A stretch of DNA of 64,000 bases from Perkinsus marinus ATCC 50983 (taxonomy: Eukaryota > Perkinsozoa > Perkinsida > Perkinsidae), in contig NW_003215247.1 of the NCBI RefSeq assembly GCF_000006405.1, forward strand, positions 157,437 through 221,436, in the 5' to 3' direction. The position numbers and the translations under genes are program-made. Positions within the stretch are counted from its first letter, which is position 1; every line of letters begins with the position of its first letter. The notes beneath the pieces are model-generated. The model worked only from the letters and a program-made list of their open reading frames with translations, made no database searches and had not been told where the DNA came from. Of this stretch, positions 7,867 to 58,000 are shown in pieces.

Positions 7867-10800
7867 ATGAACCTCTTGGAGGATGCCATCGGTCGATATG
7901 AAGAATCGAGGGAGTTGTTATCAGTCGATGATGACCCCGTGAACCAGATGGTCATATCCTCGCTCTTCGAGAGTGAGGGATTTGTAGTCCATCAAGCTAT
8001 GGACGGCTTTGAAGCCCTTGAGCATATGCAGAATAATCCTATGCCGGATCTCATCCTACTGGATGTTATGATGCCAGGCATGAGTGGTTATGAAGTCCTT
8101 GATACACTTCGGGCTGAGTAAGGTTATCCTACCATGGGAGTGCTGGCATCAGCAGCATCCAGGTACCCTCCTGATCTCCCTGTTGTCATGATATCGGCAA
8201 AGGCTGCTGTTGCCGACAAGGTCGAAGGCGTTGAACATTTTTGTGAGCTCTCTGAAATCCCTGTCCCAAGCGGGATGCTCTCTCGTGGCAGGCAATGATT
8301 ACCAGACAAAGCCTTTCGAGAAGGAGGAGCTCCTCGCCCGGGTCCGATGTCTCATTATACTTAGGCATATGATAAATGCTCATTTTGGGGAGGGTGCAGG
8401 TGGACCTGGAAAAGGAGGCGAGGGAGGTCAGGCAGCATCAAGTAGGATAGTCGGTTAGCTTCCTCGTGAGCCCCCGACTCTGCGAGCTTTAATACTCTGG
8501 AGTGAACTTGAGGAGTCCTGGTCAATGTTGCCTTGATTGACGGTAGTGGCCACTTGTTCAGTGACGATACCATCTCACATAATGGAGAAGATGAAGCAAG
8601 GAGAGTCGGATATCAATGAGAGATACGAGAAGGCATCCTTCCTCTATATGGTTTTCGATAAGTGAGCCAATGCACCAGACATCGGGACCTATTCGGTACG
8701 CTAACGTATTAGGTTGAGTGAAGCAGCAGAAGCCACTTCCCTGCCACACCTGCTCACGTTGATGACTAAGCTGCAGAGGTCATTCGAAGAGCTTCGTGAG
8801 AGCAGTAAGTTATCGACGGCAACTCTCTCTGTGGGGATATCAGCTCGGAATCAGCCATAGTGAACTCTCGGTGACCTTGACTGAACACGAACTGTTCCGA
8901 TAGTGCAGCTGATGACGATACCTTCGTCGTCAGACTATGATGCCATACACTTACAATTCATCGGTATCAACACTATTGCTGTCGCTGGTTTTAATGACGA
9001 GACCGCCAACTCAGAAGAGTTACTCTGTGGGTTCGGCAAAGCCTGCCTAGACAAAGCTTCCGAGGTCAGTAACACATAACGCTCCATACTTCAAGCCTCG
9101 AAGTTGCCTCGTAGATCGTCCTGGGTGACACACCTATCTCCAAGTTGATGAAGATAGGCATCCATACTGGACCAGCTTTCGCAGGTAGTTCTCGGCAGGG
9201 TTAGATGGTCATTCTGAGTTGTGAAATTGACCATGTCTCCTGTGATGTTGATATACCCGAGCAGGTTTCATCGGCGATGCCTTTGCCTTCATGGGGCAGC
9301 CCTCGCAGATATCGAGACAGCTAGCATTGGGAGGTGTCTGTGGGTGAGTGAAGGGCCGCACAGATCTGTCACTATGAGTGTTCCGAATCGTTATAAGGCA
9401 CGTCCATATCTCCAAGCCTACAAAGGAAGGTGTGGAGGCCTCAGCCCCTGGGTCCTTCCCATTTGGTGAGAGAGGCACGATCAGGATAGGCGAGGAACTC
9501 GTAGAGACATTCATCGTGAAACAGTACGGAATACCTACAGCGGAGAGCGGCGGCTGCTCACTGAGATCAGGTCGGATGATGAAGACCTGTCAGAGTACAA
9601 GACAGAGACCTCCTTGCTAGCCAGCGGCGCGGAAATGGTAGATAGTGGATTCTCGGTGAAGGCTTTATATAATCGCTCTTCAGGTTGAGGGGTTACAGAG
9701 TAGAGTGAAGGACTTGGAAGCTCAACTGAGAAAAATGATGTCCGGTAGGGTAGAACCTGCGTTACCGAGGCCCTCTATAGGGATGGTTGCTATTCAGAAG
9801 ATGGACGCGACGATGACGGCTCTCTTGCTAAGTGTGTGGCAGAACCCCTCACGATACAGATAGCTTCGAACAGCGATAATATGAAGGGACCAGACGGGCT
9901 CAACTTGTCGGAGGGTAGCTTGGGGCATGCTTCCCGGCATGTAGACAGCCGTCTTATTCTCACTCCAGGTGATCGTAATACCCTCAAGGGTATCCTCGAG
10001 GGGTTAGAGGCCGAGTTCTCGAAGCTGCTAGATGGATCGACTAACACAGCAGCGGGTAGCGACGGTGGCGTCCTGGATGTGTCATCAGGTAGTCAGCAAC
10101 ATGTATGTGTCTTAAGTGTGGATGAATCATTCTTCGTAGGAGAAGTAGATTCTATCATCAAGGAGGTTGAAGCTGTCATTAAGACTGTTGGAGTCCTAGA
10201 GAAGGTCTGCAAGGATAATACTTCAGCGGTAGTATTCCCGAAATCCCTAGTGGATGAACGTTCGTGGTAGGTGAAGTTGGCACAGAGTTTGATCGACGAG
10301 AAGCAGAAAGAAATAGAGGCTCTTAAAGCTAGTGCGACCTCTAAGGTTCCCGCACCTGAGGACGACGGTGCGGACGGTTTTGCTGTTGGTGCGAAATCAT
10401 CCACCTTGTATGTGGAACCTGGCCTACCTCCAGATGCGGCGATGAAGACAGAGAGTGATGAACCTATGGTACCGGCTTCCGAACTAGCTGCTGTGAAGAA
10501 GGATCTCGAGGAAACCAGGGCGGTAGGGCTTGGAGGAGGAAGCTGCCACTCGTGATGTGGTGCCCCCCAACTAGGCCCTCCATTGTGCCAAGGCTGCCTC
10601 TGCTGTTACAACGATTGGAGGAGGTGGTGGTGGTGGGATGGAGGCAATGATGGGAATGGTCACGGCTTTGATGCAGCAGTCTAACAATGCAACAAATACA
10701 CAAAAGGTGGAGTACTCATCCTGTGCTGGGCTAATATACTCGATTCTTCAGGAACCGCAGAGGGAGGCTAGAACTGGAGGGGTGATGAAGATTCAGCTCG

Positions 10801-11629
10801 AGGCTCTTGAAGCTGAATGTGACAGACTACGGCATGATGCAGCGCAGGCTAAGAGCCTTGCTACTGAGGTGGTCTTTTTGAAGAGGCAAATAGCAGGTGG
10901 GAAGAAGGGGCTCGATGAATTCTCTATCGATGGGAATATGGTGTTTAAATCCCCTCTGCAGAGTTGGAATTAGAAGGGACGATGAAGAATACAGATGCTG
11001 ATACAGTGGAGTCGTTGAAGGTCCAGGCAGAGAATTCAGTGAGGATGCTGAGGACGCTACAGTCATGATGTTTGATTCGGGAGGTCCTCTCATCAAGACT
11101 GTTGCTGTTGGAGAGACAGACACTAGACATGAAAGCCCGGAACAAGATGCTAGAAGACAAGTTGGCTGTACGAGAGTTGAGTGCCCCCCCCGATACGTCT
11201 GCCTTCCTTGACAGCTTATTGGGCGAACGGCGAGTGATGATAAAATCAAGCAAATCATCAACGATGCTGATATAACCGTCGGTGATGATCTCGAGGGTAG
11301 GATGACTTACGATATTTAGCCCTTCGACCCTCTCCGTGGTGGCAGATACACCAACAGTCTCGACCTTGACCAGGCTATTAGCGATGAGTAACAGAGCACA
11401 GGAAGATATGAGGCAGCAGCTGGAAATGCTGATGGAGAATGCTAGGGAGTGGGCAGTCATCCGGTTTGTGCTTCCCTTCCTATACAATCCCCTTCAGGCA
11501 GCAAATACGGCCCGCGTTGGGGTTCGCTGGTATGTCCCATGGCAGTCGTCCCTCGGAGGGAATGCCTTCGCCAACTCATCTCGACTCGACTATGTAAGTG
11601 GGATGCTCGATGAGTTCAGCTCGAGATAG
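7867..11629 (+). CDS. Response-regulator receiver + degenerate class III cyclase domain + coiled-coil protein
   Basis: The ATG at 7867 is followed by a CheY-type receiver: acidic cluster SVDDDPVNQMV, phospho-acceptor Asp in LILLDVMMPGMSGYEVL (codon 8062-8064), Ser in VVMISAKA (codon 8194-8196) and Lys in DYQTKPFE (codon 8309-8311). After a charged linker (VQVDLEKEAREVRQHQ, about 8392-8440) comes a class III nucleotidyl-cyclase-like fold: IMEKMKQGESDINERYEKAS (about 8577-8640), HLLTLMTKLQRSFEELRES (about 8745-8800), FIGINTIAVAGF (about 8957), KIGIHTGPAFAG (about 9150-9186), IGDAFAFMGQPSQISRQLA (about 9269) and VHISKPTKEGVEA (about 9400). The metal-binding aspartates and the transition-state Asn/Arg of active cyclases are not where expected. 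The remainder (about 9690-11629) is low-complexity and coiled-coil, for example LQSRVKDLEAQLRKMM, SLIDEKQKEIEALKASA, LEALEAECDRLRHDAAQAKS and LLLERQTLDMKARNKMLEDK. The end at 11629 is one plausible terminus. Receivers are rare in alveolates, so transfer or ancient retention is possible. Confidence 0.75.
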
Positions 11630-12362
11630 ACTCGTCAGGCGGTCGACCGGCGGATTCTCTCGAACGATGGGGTGGCCTCAAGTGTCGACTAAACGCTACC
11701 GTCCCATCTATTGATGACTGCATTATTTTGACCATTCACTATGCATCATGTCGGCCTCCAGCCTGGGCTGTGCTCACCCCGTTGTCGTTCACAGAGGTTC
11801 TTGTAGAGTTGCTAGTAGGAGCAGCAGAGAAGGTCCAGGCTCCACTCGATCGAGAGACTGTCTCAATGCACGATTTGATGCAACACGAAGAATACAAAAT
11901 GCATGTCCACCACAACGTGATCGGAGGGAACTCGCCGGAATGACCTCCCACCGAACGCTGACGTTGAATTCAGCACGACTCGAGTGCATTGTTTCAATTA
12001 ACGCGTCCACACCTTGCTCACTCAGATTCGATCCGAGTAAAGCTTCGAATCACCATAGCTCCACCTACGCAATCCATAAGACCGTCGTGAATGATAAAAC
12101 GGCATGGGAAGAACGCTCCTCATAAACCAACGGCTGCTCTGACCGGAATCAGATGACCGAAACGTCCCACTGGAGCGTCAGGGGGGACGGCGCGAATACC
12201 CCGGGTAACCACTTGGTCCTACTTGGAGGTAACCTCACCTTCCGAACGAGTCAGTCGAGCTTGACTGAGAAGATGAGGTTGTGGATGTCATCGGAGCTGA
12301 CCAGAGCAGATGATAATTTCACAGTTCTCAACTGCTTAAAATTCGGGGTAGTGGAAGGTATA
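11630..12362. other. Spacer left of the transposon
   Basis: The sequence between the receiver gene and the Tc1 element has several overlapping open frames of 70-125 codons on both strands, none with a recognisable motif. One piece (VLVELLVGAAEKVQAPLDRE, about 11785-11845) could be a further exon of the upstream gene, but I found no clear junction. TA at 12361-12362 is the left target-site duplication of the element. Confidence 0.35.
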
Positions 12363-12558
12363 CACCTCTCCACATATTCTTAGCATACATGGTGTGCAGC
12401 TCAAAATTCATCAATGAAGTCGAGTTTCACCCTGATTTTTGAATATGATAGCTTTAGTAACACTATCACTAACCTGGCAAGGTTTCAGACTCCCATTCTA
12501 CTGCTATTCTGATTTACGCACTCGACGCACTTGGAGACCTCCACATATTCTTAGCATA
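12363..12558 (+). repeat. Left terminal inverted repeat (196 bp) of Tc1-like element
   Basis: This is the reverse complement of 13587-13782 with about three mismatches, near positions 6 and 42-45 of the repeat. The outer copy of CTCCACATATTCTTAGCATA is at 12368-12387 and the inner copy at 12539-12558. These are likely transposase binding sites. Confidence 0.93.
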
Positions 12559-12663
12559 TTCTTGAAGCACCCTAGGATTTTGGTCATAGGGCACCATTGA
12601 AGCACCCAAATTGCCCCGCCGTCAACCACCATGACCACCCACGTCCTGTCATTACTTTGGGTT

Positions 12664-13517
12664 ATGTCGAAGAACAAAAACCTGACTTCAGCAGATAGGG
12701 CGCGTATCCGCGCGATGCATGCGGAGAGAGGCACAGATGGTCGTCGACGCTACACCCAAAAGGAGATTGCTCGAGCTCAGCAGGTCAACCAAGCTACGGT
12801 GAGTCGAGTAGTGAAGGCTCAGGATCAATGTGGGCCTGTATTTAAGCGGGGACCGAAGTTTCTGATGGACGAACGAACCCGACGTCGTGTTGTGCGCTAT
12901 TTCTTTGACAACTGCGGGGTGTCTACCGGTGACGCAGTTACGGAGCTCGATCTGAAAGTCTCACCANNNNNNNNNNNNNNNNNNNNNNNNNNNNNNNNNN
13001 NNNNNNNNNNNNNNNNNNNNNNNNNNNNNNNNNNNNNNNNNNNNNNNNNNNNNNNNNNNNNNNNNNTTCTAGTGCCGAGCAGCTCAAGAGCAAGAGAGCC
13101 TTCAATTGGCGGTGGTATCATGGTATGGGGTGCGAAGTCTATCAAGAAGTCCTCTCTCGTCATCTGTTACCATATTGGGAAGAGTTAAGAGAGGTGGGTC
13201 TCACGTTTCAGCAAGATAATGCTCCCTGTCATGGGAGCAGGAGCACTATCGACTGGCTCCGTGAAAGAAATGTGGTCCCACCTTGTTGGCCAGCCTTAAG
13301 CCCCGACCTCAGCCCCATAGAAAGTATATGGGCCTACATGGTAAAGACTCTGTATGGCCCGGACAAACCGATTTTTCGGACTCAGGGGGAACTCAGGACG
13401 GCTGTCTTTCGAGCATGGACCCAAATTCCTCCTGAGGTCATAACAAGCTGTACAAGCTCCCTTCCGAAGCGACTCACTGATGTCCTGGCATTGCAGGGGA
13501 GGAAAACAAGTTATTGA
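12664..13517 (+). pseudogene. Tc1-type transposase, interrupted by assembly gap and apparent frameshift/deletion
   Basis: The likely start is the ATG at 12664 (MSKNKNLTSADRARIRAMHA). The N-terminal part is a paired-like helix-turn-helix: YTQKEIARAQQVNQATVSRV, then a basic segment (DERTRRRVVRYF) up to the gap at 12967. After the gap one frame gives IGGGIMVWGAKS. The next frame gives YQEVLSRHLLPYWEELREVG and the catalytic core FQQDNAPCHG...LSPDLSPIESIWAYM, where 34 residues separate Asp from Glu (DD34E). The first catalytic Asp, expected in a DE-type motif upstream of MVWG, falls in the unsequenced part. The short distance between MVWG and YQEVL and the change of frame imply a deletion or an assembly error here. 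As assembled, no full transposase can be made. Confidence 0.85.
12967..13066. other. Assembly gap of exactly 100 N
   Basis: A run of 100 Ns sits inside the transposase. A round 100 usually marks a gap of unknown size, so coordinates and frame across it should not be trusted. Confidence 0.99.
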
Positions 13518-13586
13518 ACATCTATTGAGTAACTCTAGTCTGATATTATCATCGCATTTTACCTTTTGAATAAGTGACATAACTAG

Positions 13587-13782
13587 TATGCTAAGAATAT
13601 GTGGAGGTCTCCAAGTGCGTCGAGTGCGTAAATCAGAATAGCAGTAGAATGGGAGTCTGAAACCTTGCCAGGTTAGTGATAGTGTTACTAAAGCTATCAT
13701 ATTCAAAAATCAGGGTGAAACTCGACTTCATTGATGAACTATGAGCTGCACACCATGTATGCTAAGAATATGTGGAGGGGTG
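13587..13782 (-). repeat. Right terminal inverted repeat (196 bp) of Tc1-like element
   Basis: This is an inverted copy of 12363-12558, again with two internal copies of the 20-mer. It ends in GGTG followed by the TA target duplication at 13783-13784. Confidence 0.93.
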
Positions 13783-27673: not shown

Positions 27674-29301
27674 TTACTTGGACTCCTGAGTGGCCTTCTG
27701 AGCCTCACGATCACGAGGGTAGTACTTATCCTTGACCTTCTGGGGCACCTTCTTAAGCATACTCTCAGGGAAGAGACGAAGAAGCTCCCAAGCGATATCC
27801 AATGACTGGAAGATATCACGGTTCTCATAGGGACCCTGGCTCAAGAACTTGGACTCGAACTTATCAAGGAACTCCAAGTACAAGTGATCCTCCTCACTAA
27901 GAGCCTCCTCACCAACGACAGCCTTCATGGCACGAGTATCGACACCAACGGCGTAGTTAGCATAGAGCTGATCGGATACACTAGGATGATCCTCACGAGT
28001 CATACCACGACCAATACCGGACTTCATCAAACGTGACAGAGAGGGCAAGACGTTAATCGGGGGATACACCTGTCTGTTATGCAGAGATCTATCGACGAAG
28101 ACCTGACCCTCAGTAATATAACCGGTAAGATCAGGGATAGGATGAGTAATATCATCGTTAGGCATGGTCAGGATGGGGAACTGAGTGATGGAACCGTTAC
28201 GGCCCTCAACACGACCAGCACGCTCGTAGATGGTAGCGAGATCGGTATACATGTAACCGGGGTAACCACGACGACCGGGGACTTCCTCACGAGCAGCAGA
28301 GACCTCACGAAGAGCATCAGCATAAGAGGACATATCAGTCAAGATGACGAAGACATGCTGCTCACGCTCGTAGGCAAAGTACTCAGCAGCAGTAAGCACG
28401 AAACGAGGAGTGACAATACGCTCAATGGTGGGATCGTTAGCCAAGTTCATGAACAAGACCACATTCTCCATAGAACCGTTCTCCTCGAAATCATTACGGA
28501 AGAATCGGGCAGTTTCCATATTGGCACCCATAGCTCCGAAAATGATAGAGAAATTCTCCTTGGAGTGATCATGGATATCCTTACCTTGGACAAGCTGAGC
28601 CTGACGGCACACCTGGGCGGCGATCTCATTATGAGGAAGACCGGCAGCAGAGAACAAAGGTAGCTTCTGGCCACGGACCACGGAGTTCATGGTATCCAAG
28701 GCAGAGAGACCAGTCTGAATCATCTCCTTAGGGTACTGACGAGACTTGGGGTTAATGGGGGAACCATTGATAGGCAGGTACTCCTCAGCCAAGACTTGAG
28801 GACCCTTATCGATGGGCTGACCGGAACCGTTGAAGGAACGACCCATGATCTCATCGGACATAGGCATCTTAAGGGTATCACCCGTAAGCTCAATGTAGCA
28901 GTTCTTGTTATCCACACCACTAGTACCCTCGAAGACCTAGATATAGTAAGTAGCAGGGAGATACAAAGCTATGTCATGATGATTACCTGAACGACGGCCT
29001 TAGAACCGTTAACTTCCAAGATCTGCCCCTGCCTGGTTGAACCATCAGCCAAAGTAAGATTGACAATCTCATTGTACTGGGGGAACTTCACGTTATCAAG
29101 GATGACCAAAGGACCCTACAGTAAGAGAAAGCATGACAATTAAGCTGTGAAGGGGATCATTCATATGAGTTGCATTAGGTTAACTATGTAAGTTCTTACC
29201 TCAACACCAGTGATAGTCTGATACTCAACACGAGGATTGATAGTATAATCCCTGGTCACGGCAGCTGCGTTAATCGCAGCCGCATCCATCTTAGTAGCCA
29301 T
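27674..29301 (-). CDS. ATP6V1B: V-type proton ATPase subunit B (non-catalytic nucleotide-binding subunit)
   Basis: Subunit B alternates with subunit A in the cytosolic V1 ring that drives proton pumping into vacuoles and endosomes. There are three exons. Exon 1 (29200-29301) reads [20 protein letters not shown]...YQTITGVE. Exon 2 (about 28988-29116) carries [20 protein letters not shown] and ends KAVVQ. Exon 3 (27674 to about 28936) starts [12 protein letters not shown] and runs uninterrupted through [80 protein letters not shown], the ATP-synthase signature [10 protein letters not shown], and a C-terminus ending [11 protein letters not shown]. At about 500 residues it has the family's normal length. 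Codon choice is more uniform than in its neighbours, as expected for a highly expressed gene. It is the only minus-strand gene between 18.6 and 61.9 kb. Confidence 0.97.
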
Positions 29302-47179: not shown

Positions 47180-47618
47180 CGTTTCCGAGAGGGAGGTGGA
47201 TTCTGAGTTAGTCAATTGAGCAGTAGTTTAGCGCTTATGGGCCCTAATGGCCCGAACGAATCCGTCGCACTTTTCACACAAAACCATTCCAGATGGTAGC
47301 AGGAGAGCTTCGACCGAGATCGCACAATGTGCACGTGAACCTTGCGCAGGCACCTTGGACCATCTTGCGCTCTCGAAGTTTCTCAGTCTGTTCCCAAGAT
47401 GCTGTAATTCTTTGGCGATCTGTTACAGGAACAGTGTTCCTGAGACTCTTCCGAATCTACCCCATCATAGAGCCGGGTCGTATGGAGTTGTGATTCATCC
47501 TCGCAGTTTGATCCGATTGATCTTCCTTTTAAGGAGTAGTGAGCTCTGCTCAGACAACACCTCCTCAAATTTCAATTGGTCATCGTCAACCTACTGCTCC
47601 TGCTACTACTACTACTAC
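47180..47618. other. Spacer and leader of the RING gene
   Basis: The reading frame of the RING protein stays open back to 47247, but this part has no domain, and its composition differs from the membrane/RING part. I treat it as spacer and 5' leader. A short ACT repeat lies directly before the ATG at 47619. Confidence 0.4.
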
Positions 47619-48284
47619 ATGAATGGTACAGTTCGACGGCTCTTTGCACGAAGGCCCTTCCTGGCCTTTGTATGGACTTCAATCGCCTTAGTATTATTAT
47701 TGAGTCTGATAAGCAACTCGGGTTCTGGCAGAGTTGCGATCATAGTGGTACTAGTAGCTTGGATTTTTCTACCATTTGCTTTATCTCGGTACCTTTCGTA
47801 TCGAAAACAAGTCACCCGAGCCCGTCGAATAACTGAAGCTAACAGAGTGAAGACAGAGAGAGCCAATACGAGAGCAGCGTTATTGTTGGAAACAGTCGCT
47901 GAGGAAGAGGAGAGTGGGCCTGTAGTGGATGGACAAACGTGTGCAATATGTTTACAGGATGGGTCAATAGGTGGTAACTGGGTTAAGTTGAAATCATGTG
48001 GTCATGAATTCCATAAGACCTGTATGAAGGAAGTTATTGCACATGATGATTATGGAGCATCAAGTCATCAAAGGGGGCGGCAATACTACTATCATCACCA
48101 TGCTCCTGTTGTGAGCTCATGTCCATTGTGTCGTGCACCATTGATGCTCAATGATAACGATGATGTTAAATATCCTACTACTTGCAGTACTACTGCTATC
48201 ATTCCAGTACAACAGTCTTACACTACCACCGGGAGCGCTATCCCTATATCTGCAGCTGCTGCTTCACTTTACCTTGATGTATGA
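47619..48284 (+). CDS. Membrane-anchored RING-H2 protein, probable E3 ubiquitin ligase
   Basis: From the ATG at 47619 the intronless frame encodes about 221 residues. A basic start (MNGTVRRLFARRPF) is followed by two hydrophobic helices (FVWTSIALVLLLSLIS; VAIIVVLVAWIFLPFAL), then a basic/helical stretch (RARRITEANRVKTERANTRA) and a RING: CAICLQDGSIGGNWVKLKSC, CGHEFHKTC and SCPLCRAPL, with an extended, His/Tyr-rich insertion (QYYYHHHAP) before the last cysteine pair. The tail is Thr/Ser/Ala-rich. An open frame extends upstream to 47247, but I choose 47619 because the membrane segments begin there. The target is unknown, and the protein probably sits in an endomembrane. Confidence 0.75.
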   Translation: MNGTVRRLFARRPFLAFVWTSIALVLLLSLISNSGSGRVAIIVVLVAWIFLPFALSRYLSYRKQVTRARRITEANRVKTERANTRAALLLETVAEEEESGPVVDGQTCAICLQDGSIGGNWVKLKSCGHEFHKTCMKEVIAHDDYGASSHQRGRQYYYHHHAPVVSSCPLCRAPLMLNDNDDVKYPTTCSTTAIIPVQQSYTTTGSAIPISAAAASLYLDV

Positions 48285-48689
48285 TGTGGACGATTCGAAC
48301 TTCAATGTCGATTCATGTTTCTGTTGTCCACAATTGGAGTACACAGTAGCGAAGCTGCATTGCTTTACGATGCTTTCGGGTTGTGAAACTCCCTTGCTCT
48401 GTTGTAGAGGTAACTTATAGGAGTCGGGTGATGTTTTGTATGCTCCTAATCTCTTCTCTCTAGAGCTGCCTAAAGAGGCTCCTCGACGGTATTGATGTTG
48501 TTATATTTGGTTATGTTGATGTTATATTTACAGCAGTATCATTAGTATCCGCCGAATGCAATAGGAAGGTTCAGTTTCTCGTATTCAATTATCCCTTCTG
48601 CATTGGGACTGAGTTGTGTTGGTGGTAGTAGTCACTACTAAGTGGTGGCAGCCTTCACCAGGTTGTTCATAAGTTTCAGTTTTTTGGTA
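48285..48689. other. Spacer upstream of the START-domain gene
   Basis: No independent gene is seen. The START frame is open back to a GTG at 48642, but the first ATG in frame is at 48690. Confidence 0.4.
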
Positions 48690-50369
48690 ATGGCTTTCCT
48701 ATCATGGCGTTCTCGTCAGTACTGCTATTACCACAGTTATCGGAGTAATGCATTGGCCCGTAGCCATCATCATTATGGACATCGGTGGTGGCCTCACTGG
48801 TGGTCACGTCATGAGTCATATATGGATTTGATCTACAGCTTGGGTAAACCATCTACACGGCAAAAACTCCTATTAGGGGTGGTAGCGGCAGCGTTGGTTA
48901 CTCATGAGATCTGGAGGGATATGAAAAAGGACAACGCCGTAGAGGGTGGCTTAGGGAGTGCCATGGACGGCGGCGGTAGTCGCGATTCACTAACATTAGA
49001 GGGGATGCAACGGGGTGGAGAGGCCATGCCTGCTCCACCAGCGCTGTTCAAGGCACCAGTACACATGTCATTCCTGCCTATGTGGCAAGTCATACCTTGG
49101 CCATCTAAGGGAGTACACCTCCCTCCTGTTACAACACCTCCCGATAAGGTCTCCATACCTGGGGATGTCCTCGAGCGGGGGCTGCATGCCTCACGTGAGG
49201 TTCTTACCCAACTTGATTGTACCGGGGTTATACAGAGTAGCAACATGGGGGAAGACTACGCAGCCTCTCGGCATGTAGATAGTGTAGAAGCATCTAGCTA
49301 TAGAGGGCTCAAGGAGGAGTTTGATATACCCAGTGATATGGCCTTACCCCCTCGAGTCCACTCCCTGCTCGATGGCGTATTGTCACTAGTGTCTGATGAG
49401 ATGGCTACTGACCCTGATGTCTATCTCCCTTCGCATGGGTGGCAACGTTTCAAACATCTCGAGAAGGATGGTCAATACACTTGTACGATATGGCGTAAGG
49501 AGCTGCTGACTACAGGAGGGAAGAGTCCGACGGCACAATGGATGATGACTGGCGATATTGCAGTTACCCCCGCTCAGTTCCATGCCCTTAATGTTGACAT
49601 AGACAATAGGGCATCATGGGATTCTACGTTCGAAGGGGCGAGAAAGGAGGACGAGAAGGAAGATGATGGTAGCAGTACGTTGGTATGGAAGGCTAAATGG
49701 CCATGGCCTTTCTCTTCTAGGCTCTATAGGTATCGCCAGATTCCTCTTGTACTTCCTAATGATGATACTCGTGCTATGCTTTCACTTGGTTTACAACAAG
49801 AGGGAGGCCCGGGCGAGAAGGATGATAGCTTGGTTCGTGTTACTGACTATATAAGTCTATCTTGTATAAAGCCTAATGTACGGCAAGAAGGGAAATCGTC
49901 CCTCCAGAGTCGATACTGCCTTTATTATTATGATGATCCTAAGGTTGGCGCATCGATGCCTGCTTGGTTGGAACGTAATGTTGCCGAATCTACCCTTCCC
50001 AAGCTAGTCAGCAACATTGTTACCGCTGTGTCTAACTATCCTCTACAGAGGCTAGAGAAATACAAGGATGTTGGCTTGAGGGATAACAGTGTGGTAGAGT
50101 CTAACGATGAAGCATTATCGTTAGATCAACAGGAGATGAGTCCGACAACGTTAGAAGTGAATACCCTCACCCCCACTCCAAGTCTTACTGAACACCAGTC
50201 TAGAAGACGTACCCCTCCCTATGCTACTCCTATCATATGCCAATGGCTACCACCAGCAGTCTCCGGTAGCTCTGATAAGGGCGACGATACTAAACCGTTG
50301 CTGCTGCCATGCCCGTTCCTTTTTACCCCTCTCGATGTAGTTGTTACTTTGTATGAGGACTGGCTCTAG
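48690..50369 (+). CDS. START-domain lipid-binding protein, membrane-anchored, single exon
   Basis: An uninterrupted frame of 559 codons starts at the ATG at 48690. The N-terminus has a His/Trp/Tyr-rich stretch (SHHHYGHRWWPHWWSRHESY) and a short hydrophobic segment (LLLGVVAAALVTHE). The START fold occupies roughly residues 230-470: GDIAVTPAQFHALNVDIDNR and ASWDSTF (the dNR..WD motif), then KAKWPWPFSSRLYRYRQIPL (compare STARD7-type W..PYPLLSRDYVY), VRVTDYISLSCIKPNVRQEG and a C-terminal helix WLERNVAESTLPKLVSNIVT. START domains carry phospholipids or sterols in a closed cavity; the SSR.Y motif suggests the phosphatidylcholine-type branch. The Ser/Thr/Pro-rich tail ends at 50369. Unlike nearly all neighbours it has no introns. 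Confidence 0.8.
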   Translation: MAFLSWRSRQYCYYHSYRSNALARSHHHYGHRWWPHWWSRHESYMDLIYSLGKPSTRQKLLLGVVAAALVTHEIWRDMKKDNAVEGGLGSAMDGGGSRDSLTLEGMQRGGEAMPAPPALFKAPVHMSFLPMWQVIPWPSKGVHLPPVTTPPDKVSIPGDVLERGLHASREVLTQLDCTGVIQSSNMGEDYAASRHVDSVEASSYRGLKEEFDIPSDMALPPRVHSLLDGVLSLVSDEMATDPDVYLPSHGWQRFKHLEKDGQYTCTIWRKELLTTGGKSPTAQWMMTGDIAVTPAQFHALNVDIDNRASWDSTFEGARKEDEKEDDGSSTLVWKAKWPWPFSSRLYRYRQIPLVLPNDDTRAMLSLGLQQEGGPGEKDDSLVRVTDYISLSCIKPNVRQEGKSSLQSRYCLYYYDDPKVGASMPAWLERNVAESTLPKLVSNIVTAVSNYPLQRLEKYKDVGLRDNSVVESNDEALSLDQQEMSPTTLEVNTLTPTPSLTEHQSRRRTPPYATPIICQWLPPAVSGSSDKGDDTKPLLLPCPFLFTPLDVVVTLYEDWL

Positions 50370-55087: not shown

Positions 55088-58000
55088 ATGCTGTCTCGGG
55101 CAACAGTGTTGCCTGTGAGTATCCCGAGGCTGGGAGCCTCTCATGTCATCCTGAGCATCACGGCAGCAGCATCATCATCATCAGCGGCTTACAGGGTCTC
55201 CTCTCACACTGGTGGTTACCCTCCCCAAGCGTACCTCGGCGTTAGAGGGTTGTCACATCATGTACACCTTAGTGGTGATGGCGTGGAATCATTCTGCGTG
55301 TTAGGGCTCCTCCTCCTCCTCCTCCTCACACAGCGCTGTTGATGAGTATGTGAAGTCCCTCTCCCCTAAGGATAAGCACTACTTAGGGCTGCATACTATG
55401 GGCCTCTTCGATAAGTCAGCTGTTCTCTAACAGTGAATGCTTTACCGTGTCTATCTTCAGGACGGATACTTTCCTACCTCGCCATATAGGCAGTGGTCAG
55501 AGTGACATAGAGGAGATGTGCCGTGTGGTTGGTGCCTCTAGTCTGAAGGAGCTCATACAGGAGACCATACCCCGTATAGCCCTGCCCTGCAGCTATTCTT
55601 CCTTCTGAACGTCATAATGTCCTTCAGATCACATTATGCGTGACCAAGGCTTCCTCAGTATCACCGGGGCTAGGTCAGAGAGTGAGGCCTTGAGCATCTT
55701 TAAGAAGATGATGAGAAAGAACAAACTCTATAAGAACTTCATAGGCCAAGGGTGAGAATAATCCTTTACTCCTGTTTAAAGAATAGATACATATACAAGC
55801 AGATATCATGGTACAATCGTACCCAAGCCTATCCTTCGTAACCTAGCTGAGAACCCTGTCTGGTATACTAGCTATACACCCTATCAGGCAGAGATATCTC
55901 AAGGTAGGGGTGATGAAGGATGATGATGAACATGAAATGGACATCTTTATTAGGCCGCCTCGAGAGCTTGATGATATTCCAGACAGTTGTATCGGAGCTG
56001 ACGGGTCTACCAGTGGCCAACTGTTCCCTATTGGATGAGGCTACCGCCGCTGCAGAGGCAGTTACTATGATCCAGCGAGGTAGTCGTTGTTGTATGTTCC
56101 TCTGTATATTGATCTTGTATAGGTGTTGGTAATAGTACTCGTAAGGTCATGTTCATATCGGATACTATGCATCCACAGACTATCGAGGTCGTTAAGACTC
56201 GGGCTCAATGGGCAGGGATACCTTTGGAGATAGGCGATATTGATTCCTTCGATTTTACAAGGAAGGACCTCATCGGAGCCTTTGTGCAATACCCTGATAC
56301 CCAAGGTGTCCTTCGTGATTTCACCTTTCTTGCTGATGCCCTCAAGGAGGGTAGTGGAGGAACTCTGGCTGTAGCAGCCGATCCTCTAGCACTTACTGTA
56401 TGCAAGCCTCCAAGTGATATGGGTGCCCAAGTAGTAGTGGGTACTATGCAAAGGTTTGGTGTGCCTATGTGGTATGGTGGACCAGCTGCTGGATATCTAG
56501 CTACTACTTCAGCAAATACCCGTCGTATGGCTGGAAGGTTGGTAGGGGTATCACAGGATGCCCAGGGTAACCCGGCATATAGGCTTACACTGCAGACTAG
56601 GGAGCAGCATATCAGGTATCGATCATTCTACCTCAGTAGTCACTATCTTCTCCTTGATCTTAGGCTTAATAAGGCGACTTCCAACGTATGTACAGCCCAG
56701 GCACTCCTGGCTAATATGAGTGCAATGTATGCTGTTTACCATGGACCATCAGGCTTAACTCGTATTGCTAGTAGAGTGCATGCTCTTGGTCAACTGCTTG
56801 TCGATGGACTCCAACGTATGGAGGTGCCGGTCGTCACCTCCGACATGTTTTTTGACTGTGTGTCAATGAAGCCTGGATCGCCTGAGGCAGCTTCCAGAGT
56901 TATGAAGGCAGCAGTGGCAGCGGGTATGAATCTAAGATTGGTCGATCCAGCTACAGTGTCGGCTACCTTCGATGAGACACATACTATAAAGGACGTAGAA
57001 GCTCTATTGCAGGTGGGAATACAATACTAGCCTCAACTGTAGGGTGCTATTCTTAGGTCATTGCTACCGCTATTGGCACTGAGTCCACCGAGGGGGATAG
57101 GCATTCCACAGAGGCTGACCTAGGCCTTATACCCAAACCATTGCGGCGTATTACACCGTATATGTCACAGAAGGTATGGATATCGATCATAGGCTCTCTG
57201 CCATAGCTACTGTGTTGTTGTAGATATTCAACAGTGTAGTCACTGAGACTGACCTCATGCGGTATCTTTATTATCTACAAAACAAGGTAGTGTCCTGCAA
57301 AGCTTGTTATGCCTGCCATCAGTGGTTCCCCCGTCAGGATATCTCCCTTACTAAGTCTATGATAACGCTCGGTTCATGCACTATGAAGTTGAACTCTTCC
57401 AGCTCTATGTATACTATAGTACAGTAGGGACTATTCGGGTAGACTTGTTGTTAACCCTACCTCTATTATCTTAGAGAGGAGGTCACTACTCCACACCCAT
57501 TCACACCACTTAACCAGATGGAAGGATATACTGAGTTATTGAGGTCTTTGGAGAGGAGTCTCAAAGAGGTATCAATAGGCATATGATGCTGTTATCGATA
57601 TATCTAATATCAGATCACGGGTTTCGCAGTGTGTTCCCTACAGCCATGCAGTGGGGCTCAAGGAGAGTTTGCTGGCCTGTTAGCTATAAGGCAGTATCAT
57701 GCATCTCGAGGTCATACATGATACTCCATCAGTATCAGTATTAGCCGCTTTAACAGGTGATACTCAACGCAGTGTATGTCTAATACCACGCTCGGCTCAT
57801 GGTACCAATCCAGCATCAGCTGCTATGATGGGCTTTGAGATAGTATGGCTTGATGATGATGGTAATAGTATGATCATCGACAGTGCGATATGGGAGTAGA
57901 TAGCTTCCCTCCAGGTCCCAATGGTATGGATATCGATGTACTTGATAGGATATGCTCGGAGATTGGGGATAGACTGGGGGCATTGATGATCACATATCCC

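Follow-up and report, generated by a model that had tools for sequence, protein, structure and literature searches.

The 64,000 nucleotide stretch of the Perkinsus marinus ATCC 50983 genome analysed here (contig NW_003215247.1, positions 157,437 to 221,436 of the forward strand, referred to as the window) contains a gene for which sequence comparison supports a predicted product of two fused parts: a receiver domain that has every phosphotransfer residue, and a class III cyclase fold from which the catalytic residues are missing. We favour, with about even confidence, the reading that this is a two-component response regulator in which a cyclase fold, no longer catalytic, was retained as the output and serves for dimerisation or docking. 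Related proteins of other microbes have the same layout, and this too suggests a pairing role for the fold in place of an enzymatic one. Its orthologue in Perkinsus olseni, FOZ60_012830 (P0121, 926 amino acids), is 81% identical across the full span of residues 1-366. The features of the gene are as follows.

7867..11714, + strand: whole gene, 23 exons and 22 GT-AG introns of 42-129 nt, 854 amino acids and stop, from the spliced alignment of P0121.
7867..8386, + strand: receiver domain, residues 1-142 (exons 7867-8117, 8163-8242 and the first part of 8292-8441), from Pfam, residues and P. olseni.
8562..9523, + strand: class III cyclase-fold domain (exons 8562-8661, 8713-8804, 8934-9064, 9115-9184, 9265-9343 and 9398-9523), from profile, HMMER alignments and the P. 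olseni model.
8567..8641, + strand: conserved pre-core segment IPSHIMEKMKQGESDINERYEKASF, in alignments the counterpart of LPxxIxxRLKxGE in active cyclases.
8651..8653, + strand: first metal Asp position, Val191, 8 bases from the exon end, from the catalytic profile.
8966..8968, + strand: second metal Asp position, Ile236, from the catalytic profile.
9306..9308, + strand: transition-state Asn position, Gln306, from HMMER alignments to solved cyclases and our own profile.
9318..9320, + strand: transition-state Arg position, Gln310, from the same alignments and profile.
9571..11711, + strand: C-terminal region of long predicted helices, with exons from the P0121 alignment and a P. olseni model of low to fair confidence.

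The receiver matched Pfam Response_reg (PF00072) over residues 18-129 with an E value of 4.3e-28 and 98.2 bits, relative to a curated cut-off of 30.2. The set of phosphotransfer residues, described as complete in the initial annotation, is indeed so: the acidic pair D21 and D22, the phospho-Asp D66, S95 and K117. By sequence, the best solved relatives of this domain were YycF, PleD and PhoB, and 138 of its 142 residues are identical in P. olseni.

The class III framework proposed for the second domain was likewise recovered, by a Pfam Guanylate_cyc match above the cut-off (E 1.4e-6; 28.5 bits versus 21.9). Profile score and fold, the latter from a confident model of the P. olseni protein, identify the domain as a class III nucleotidyl cyclase by fold; the residues expected of the enzyme, namely the metal Asp pair, the Asn/Arg pair and the base-recognition Lys/Asp, are absent. 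Both metal aspartates are lost, as had been claimed (V191 and I236). Also the transition-state Asn and Arg are gone, both being Gln, but the motif that holds them is FAFMGQPSQISRQ and not GDAFAFMGQ, where they had been placed by the initial annotation. Our own cyclase profile, for which 3 of 17 seeds were lost for want of an anchor, showed in addition that the base-recognition positions are altered (K to Q and D to A). The same four catalytic positions are lost in the P. olseni orthologue, which reads V, V, Q and Q. The pre-core segment IPSHIMEKMKQGESDINERYEKASF may represent the "cyclase transducer element", a term taken from the available part of PMC5995499.

Hand-chosen GT-AG junctions gave one open frame through the receiver and the cyclase-like domain, and the eight junctions picked up to the cyclase end were identical to those from the spliced alignment of P0121. 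A gene finder blind to domains found the same first six introns, used another donor for the seventh, skipped exon 9398-9523 and differed further downstream. An earlier model extended by hand had 14 introns and 772 amino acids, lacking three introns of the P0121 alignment. The splice script admitted stop codons at a heavy penalty, and none occurred in the alignments inspected (C223, a contig with a kinase hybrid treated below, was not among them). The gene had been taken to end near 9560; the splice-aware alignment instead places a TGA stop at 11712-11714, beyond the long, mostly helical C-terminal region, which in the model is probably a coiled coil. The far C-terminal exons are known from the alignment of P0121, itself a prediction. 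P0121 is annotated as hypothetical or response regulatory domain-containing and nothing more, contains just two Pfam families (receiver and cyclase) and starts at the receiver, as the window protein does.

Exon mis-assembly as the source of the lost residues was rejected, because the predicted P. olseni protein displays the same losses and all four changed positions (191, 236, 306 and 310) lie within exons.

In the genome (54,459,702 bases in 347 contigs, searched at exon level and with splice-aware models), two further stand-alone receivers were detected, C333 and C100/C142, the latter the counterpart of P. olseni P0218. Three histidine kinase-receiver-cyclase hybrids were also found, C231/C215, C104 and C267/C223 (loci labelled L020/L021, L024 and L023/L025); the two contigs of a pair may be alleles of one locus. 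No match to a histidine phosphotransfer (Hpt) domain was found in the genome. The phospho-Asp is replaced in two of the three hybrids, by Glu in C231 and Ser in C104, and kept in all three stand-alone receivers, while C231 (VNHEL) and C104 (VAHEL) retain the kinase His together with the ATP-binding boxes. Kinases with conserved motifs and a replaced receiver Asp, beside intact stand-alone receivers, suggest at the level of sequence that phosphate may be transferred in trans, from the broken-receiver kinases to separate receivers.

Cyclase loci with catalytic residues kept in the matching exons are present too: C346 reads D, D, N, R, and C311, C280, C297 and C197 read D, E, N, R. No receiver exon was found at these loci by the receiver family search, itself a lower bound. 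Since there were 29 exon matches to the cNMP (cyclic nucleotide)-binding family, cyclic-nucleotide signalling as such seems not to have been lost.

In the receiver tree, nine environmental proteins of 399-479 amino acids formed a group with the window protein and P0121 at 99/99. The first set consists of P0001, P0002, P0003, P0005 and P0006, with receivers up to 73% identical to that of the window, and the second of P0008, P0010, P0011 and P0015. We infer these proteins to be eukaryotic because P0213, P0214 and P0216 start at the same residue inside the receiver, as if an upstream exon were missing. A model of P0003 compared by Foldseek with class III cyclases, such as 4ni2_B, gave a target template modelling (TM) score of 0.74 and a root mean square deviation of 3.4 over 195 columns; proteins with a receiver and a diguanylate cyclase, and receivers, ranked above the class III cyclases. 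The assignment of the P0003 cyclase part is drawn from Foldseek, because the receiver filled the VIA rows for this model. Residues GGVVNGRY of the first set align without a gap to AGFIGDAF of the window protein. From the profile and model matches, the dead-cyclase layout is supported as common to the window protein and the first set, and tentatively so for the second. Even in the second set the pre-core segment is kept, which would fit transmission from a receiver to a paired fold.

In P0022, P0025, P0026, P0030 and P0032 the receiver is the only listed Pfam domain, and their C-terminal parts may be more diverged cyclase folds. P0122 displays two receivers and two degenerate cyclase domains in one chain, and P0217 two receivers and one.

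The receiver tree, from which 2 of 50 wanted rows were dropped for short or split receivers, placed the window receiver among eukaryotic and environmental receivers, and a split at 98/94 set it apart from every one of the 14 bacterial rows. On its side of this split also fell all seven stand-alone receivers of Perkinsus and the rows with a kinase-receiver-cyclase layout, P0134, P0144, P0145 and P0193. The label INCI of P0144 probably denotes the genus Incisomonas. The three Perkinsus kinase receivers had very long branches and unreliable placement, C231 being located on the bacterial side. The view that a bacterial layout would be out of place in an alveolate finds no support in this tree or in the kinase-receiver-cyclase proteins known from green algae, as described in the available part of PMC6284317.

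Recent transfer from bacteria was rejected on the receiver tree. A scan of prokaryote genomes for the cyclase-like part of the first set, using two short patterns that diverged relatives can escape, gave 77 places, none of them a relative. In viral contigs, the matches at 27 loci lay mostly in the receiver and reached 43% at best, and none of 177 phage records covered 80% of the query.

The gene structure, the full receiver, the fold, the four catalytic and two base-recognition losses, the P. olseni match and the environmental kinship are all drawn from sequence and prediction, and on the favoured reading the protein may act as follows. A histidine kinase would phosphorylate the receiver, and phosphorylation would rearrange the receiver/pseudo-cyclase dimer via the connecting segment. 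The dead domain may pair with a second copy of itself or with its dead counterparts in the kinase hybrids, and such pairing would bring a kinase with a broken receiver beside a separate intact receiver. Output would pass through the helical C-terminus to a partner and not via a cyclic nucleotide made by this protein. Class III sites are built from two Asp of one chain and the Asn and Arg of the other; with all four absent, the domain cannot complete a canonical site alongside any partner, which should leave it neutral as a pairing module or inhibitory towards an active chain. A wider scheme, tentative and somewhat doubtful, is that the Perkinsus two-component network was rebuilt on dead cyclase folds, through which broken-receiver kinases pair with intact-receiver/dead-cyclase proteins, the fold serving as an address label of the phosphorelay. 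If so, such a use would predate Perkinsus, because stand-alone receivers with a dead cyclase-like domain also occur in environmental lineages.

Several observations weigh against this account. The C267 hybrid retains its own phospho-Asp, so that the broken-receiver pattern holds in two of three hybrids, and its cyclase is readable at only two of the four catalytic positions. The C333 model is weak around the first Asp, one of the four catalytic residues survives in the C333 counterparts of P. olseni and P. chesapeaki, and the C100 cyclase could not be aligned. The count of genes is a minimum, only 3 of the 6 having been matched by the receiver family search, and the missing Hpt match counts here as well. 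Among the environmental proteins, Pfam does not recognise the second domain in those examined (P0003 and P0008). The cyclase-like domain of the first set comes from one predicted model and a weak profile match, the comparison with the window pair aligning 197 columns at 51% probability. For the second set, the alignment with active cyclases was confined to the pre-core segment (31% probability), and the comparison with the window pair gave 2.8%.

Alternatively, and rather unlikely in our estimate, the protein is a regulatory subunit whose dead domain pairs with the catalytic domain of an active cyclase under control of the receiver. The genome has candidate partners in its cyclase exons with catalytic residues, such as C346, and a heterodimer with an unidentified cyclase was proposed for Chlamydomonas Cop5, as given in the available part of PMC8006352. 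In many heterodimeric class III cyclases, however, the missing residues are provided by the partner chain (available part of PMC8815786), and here all four are gone. As the dead domain offers neither the Asp pair nor the Asn/Arg pair and would complete neither site, pairing would most simply inhibit.

The proposal that the domain is a nucleotide sensor, binding ATP or GTP without turnover, agrees with the retained fold of the P. olseni model, but it is weakened and now improbable because the two base-recognition positions are changed along with both metal aspartates. An active enzyme using unusual residues could draw on D193, located two residues beyond the first metal position in both the window protein and P. 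olseni; for the remaining three, the sequence alignments show no evident substitute, and we regard such an enzyme as extremely improbable. The cyclase part is less conserved relative to P. olseni than the receiver (74% versus 97% identity), as would be expected if the gene were relaxed or decaying and its cyclase part had kept no function. Decay is nevertheless highly improbable, given a frame open across 23 exons, a cyclase part that aligns to P. olseni with a single gap at its start, a confidently predicted fold and wider kin with the same layout.

Elsewhere in the window, a transposase-like frame at about 12360-13780, partly masked and with a short repeat in inverted orientation on either side, resembles a mariner-type element. 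A frame of 420 amino acids (27674-28936, − strand) matched ATP-synt_ab and the C-terminal domain of V and A type ATP synthase, and one of 305 (56113-57030, + strand) the glycine cleavage P-protein (E 4.8e-88). On the + strand, a RING-like frame at 47232-48284 remained below the Pfam cut-offs, and a frame of 575 amino acids at 48642-50369 had no Pfam match at E 0.01. Rfam and tRNA scans found nothing.

A literature search covering few subscription journals found no paper on the window gene and none joining Perkinsus, response regulator and adenylate cyclase. The comparisons that follow draw on the available parts of the papers cited. In Chlamydomonas Cop5/HKR1, compared here by its published description, the receiver is likewise followed directly by a cyclase domain from which several key residues are missing and for which activity was undetected (PMC8006352); chemotaxis to ammonium was much reduced in Cop5 knock-outs (PMC11621555). 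Unlike the window protein, which starts at the receiver and ends in a long helical C-terminus, Cop5 carries an opsin and a histidine kinase in its chain. The same direct order of receiver and cyclase is found in Cr2c-Cyclop1 (2c-Cyclop), which differs in being an active guanylyl cyclase with opsin and kinase in the same chain, and in which high guanylyl cyclase activity in the dark requires a phosphorylated receiver Asp (PMC6284317). Bacterial receiver-cyclases such as P0056 have the same two domains in the same order; P0056 keeps all four catalytic residues, unlike the window protein, and its receiver is located on the opposite side of the tree.

The window gene is a variant on a known receiver-cyclase layout, marked by its lack of kinase or opsin, its helical tail and its wider kin. 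Dead kinases are well studied; dead cyclases seem to have been little described. The gene and its kin offer a conserved, testable alveolate case of a two-component switch with a chemistry-free cyclase fold as its output, and they may be relevant to the way in which Chlamydomonas Cop5 functions with no measurable cyclase activity.
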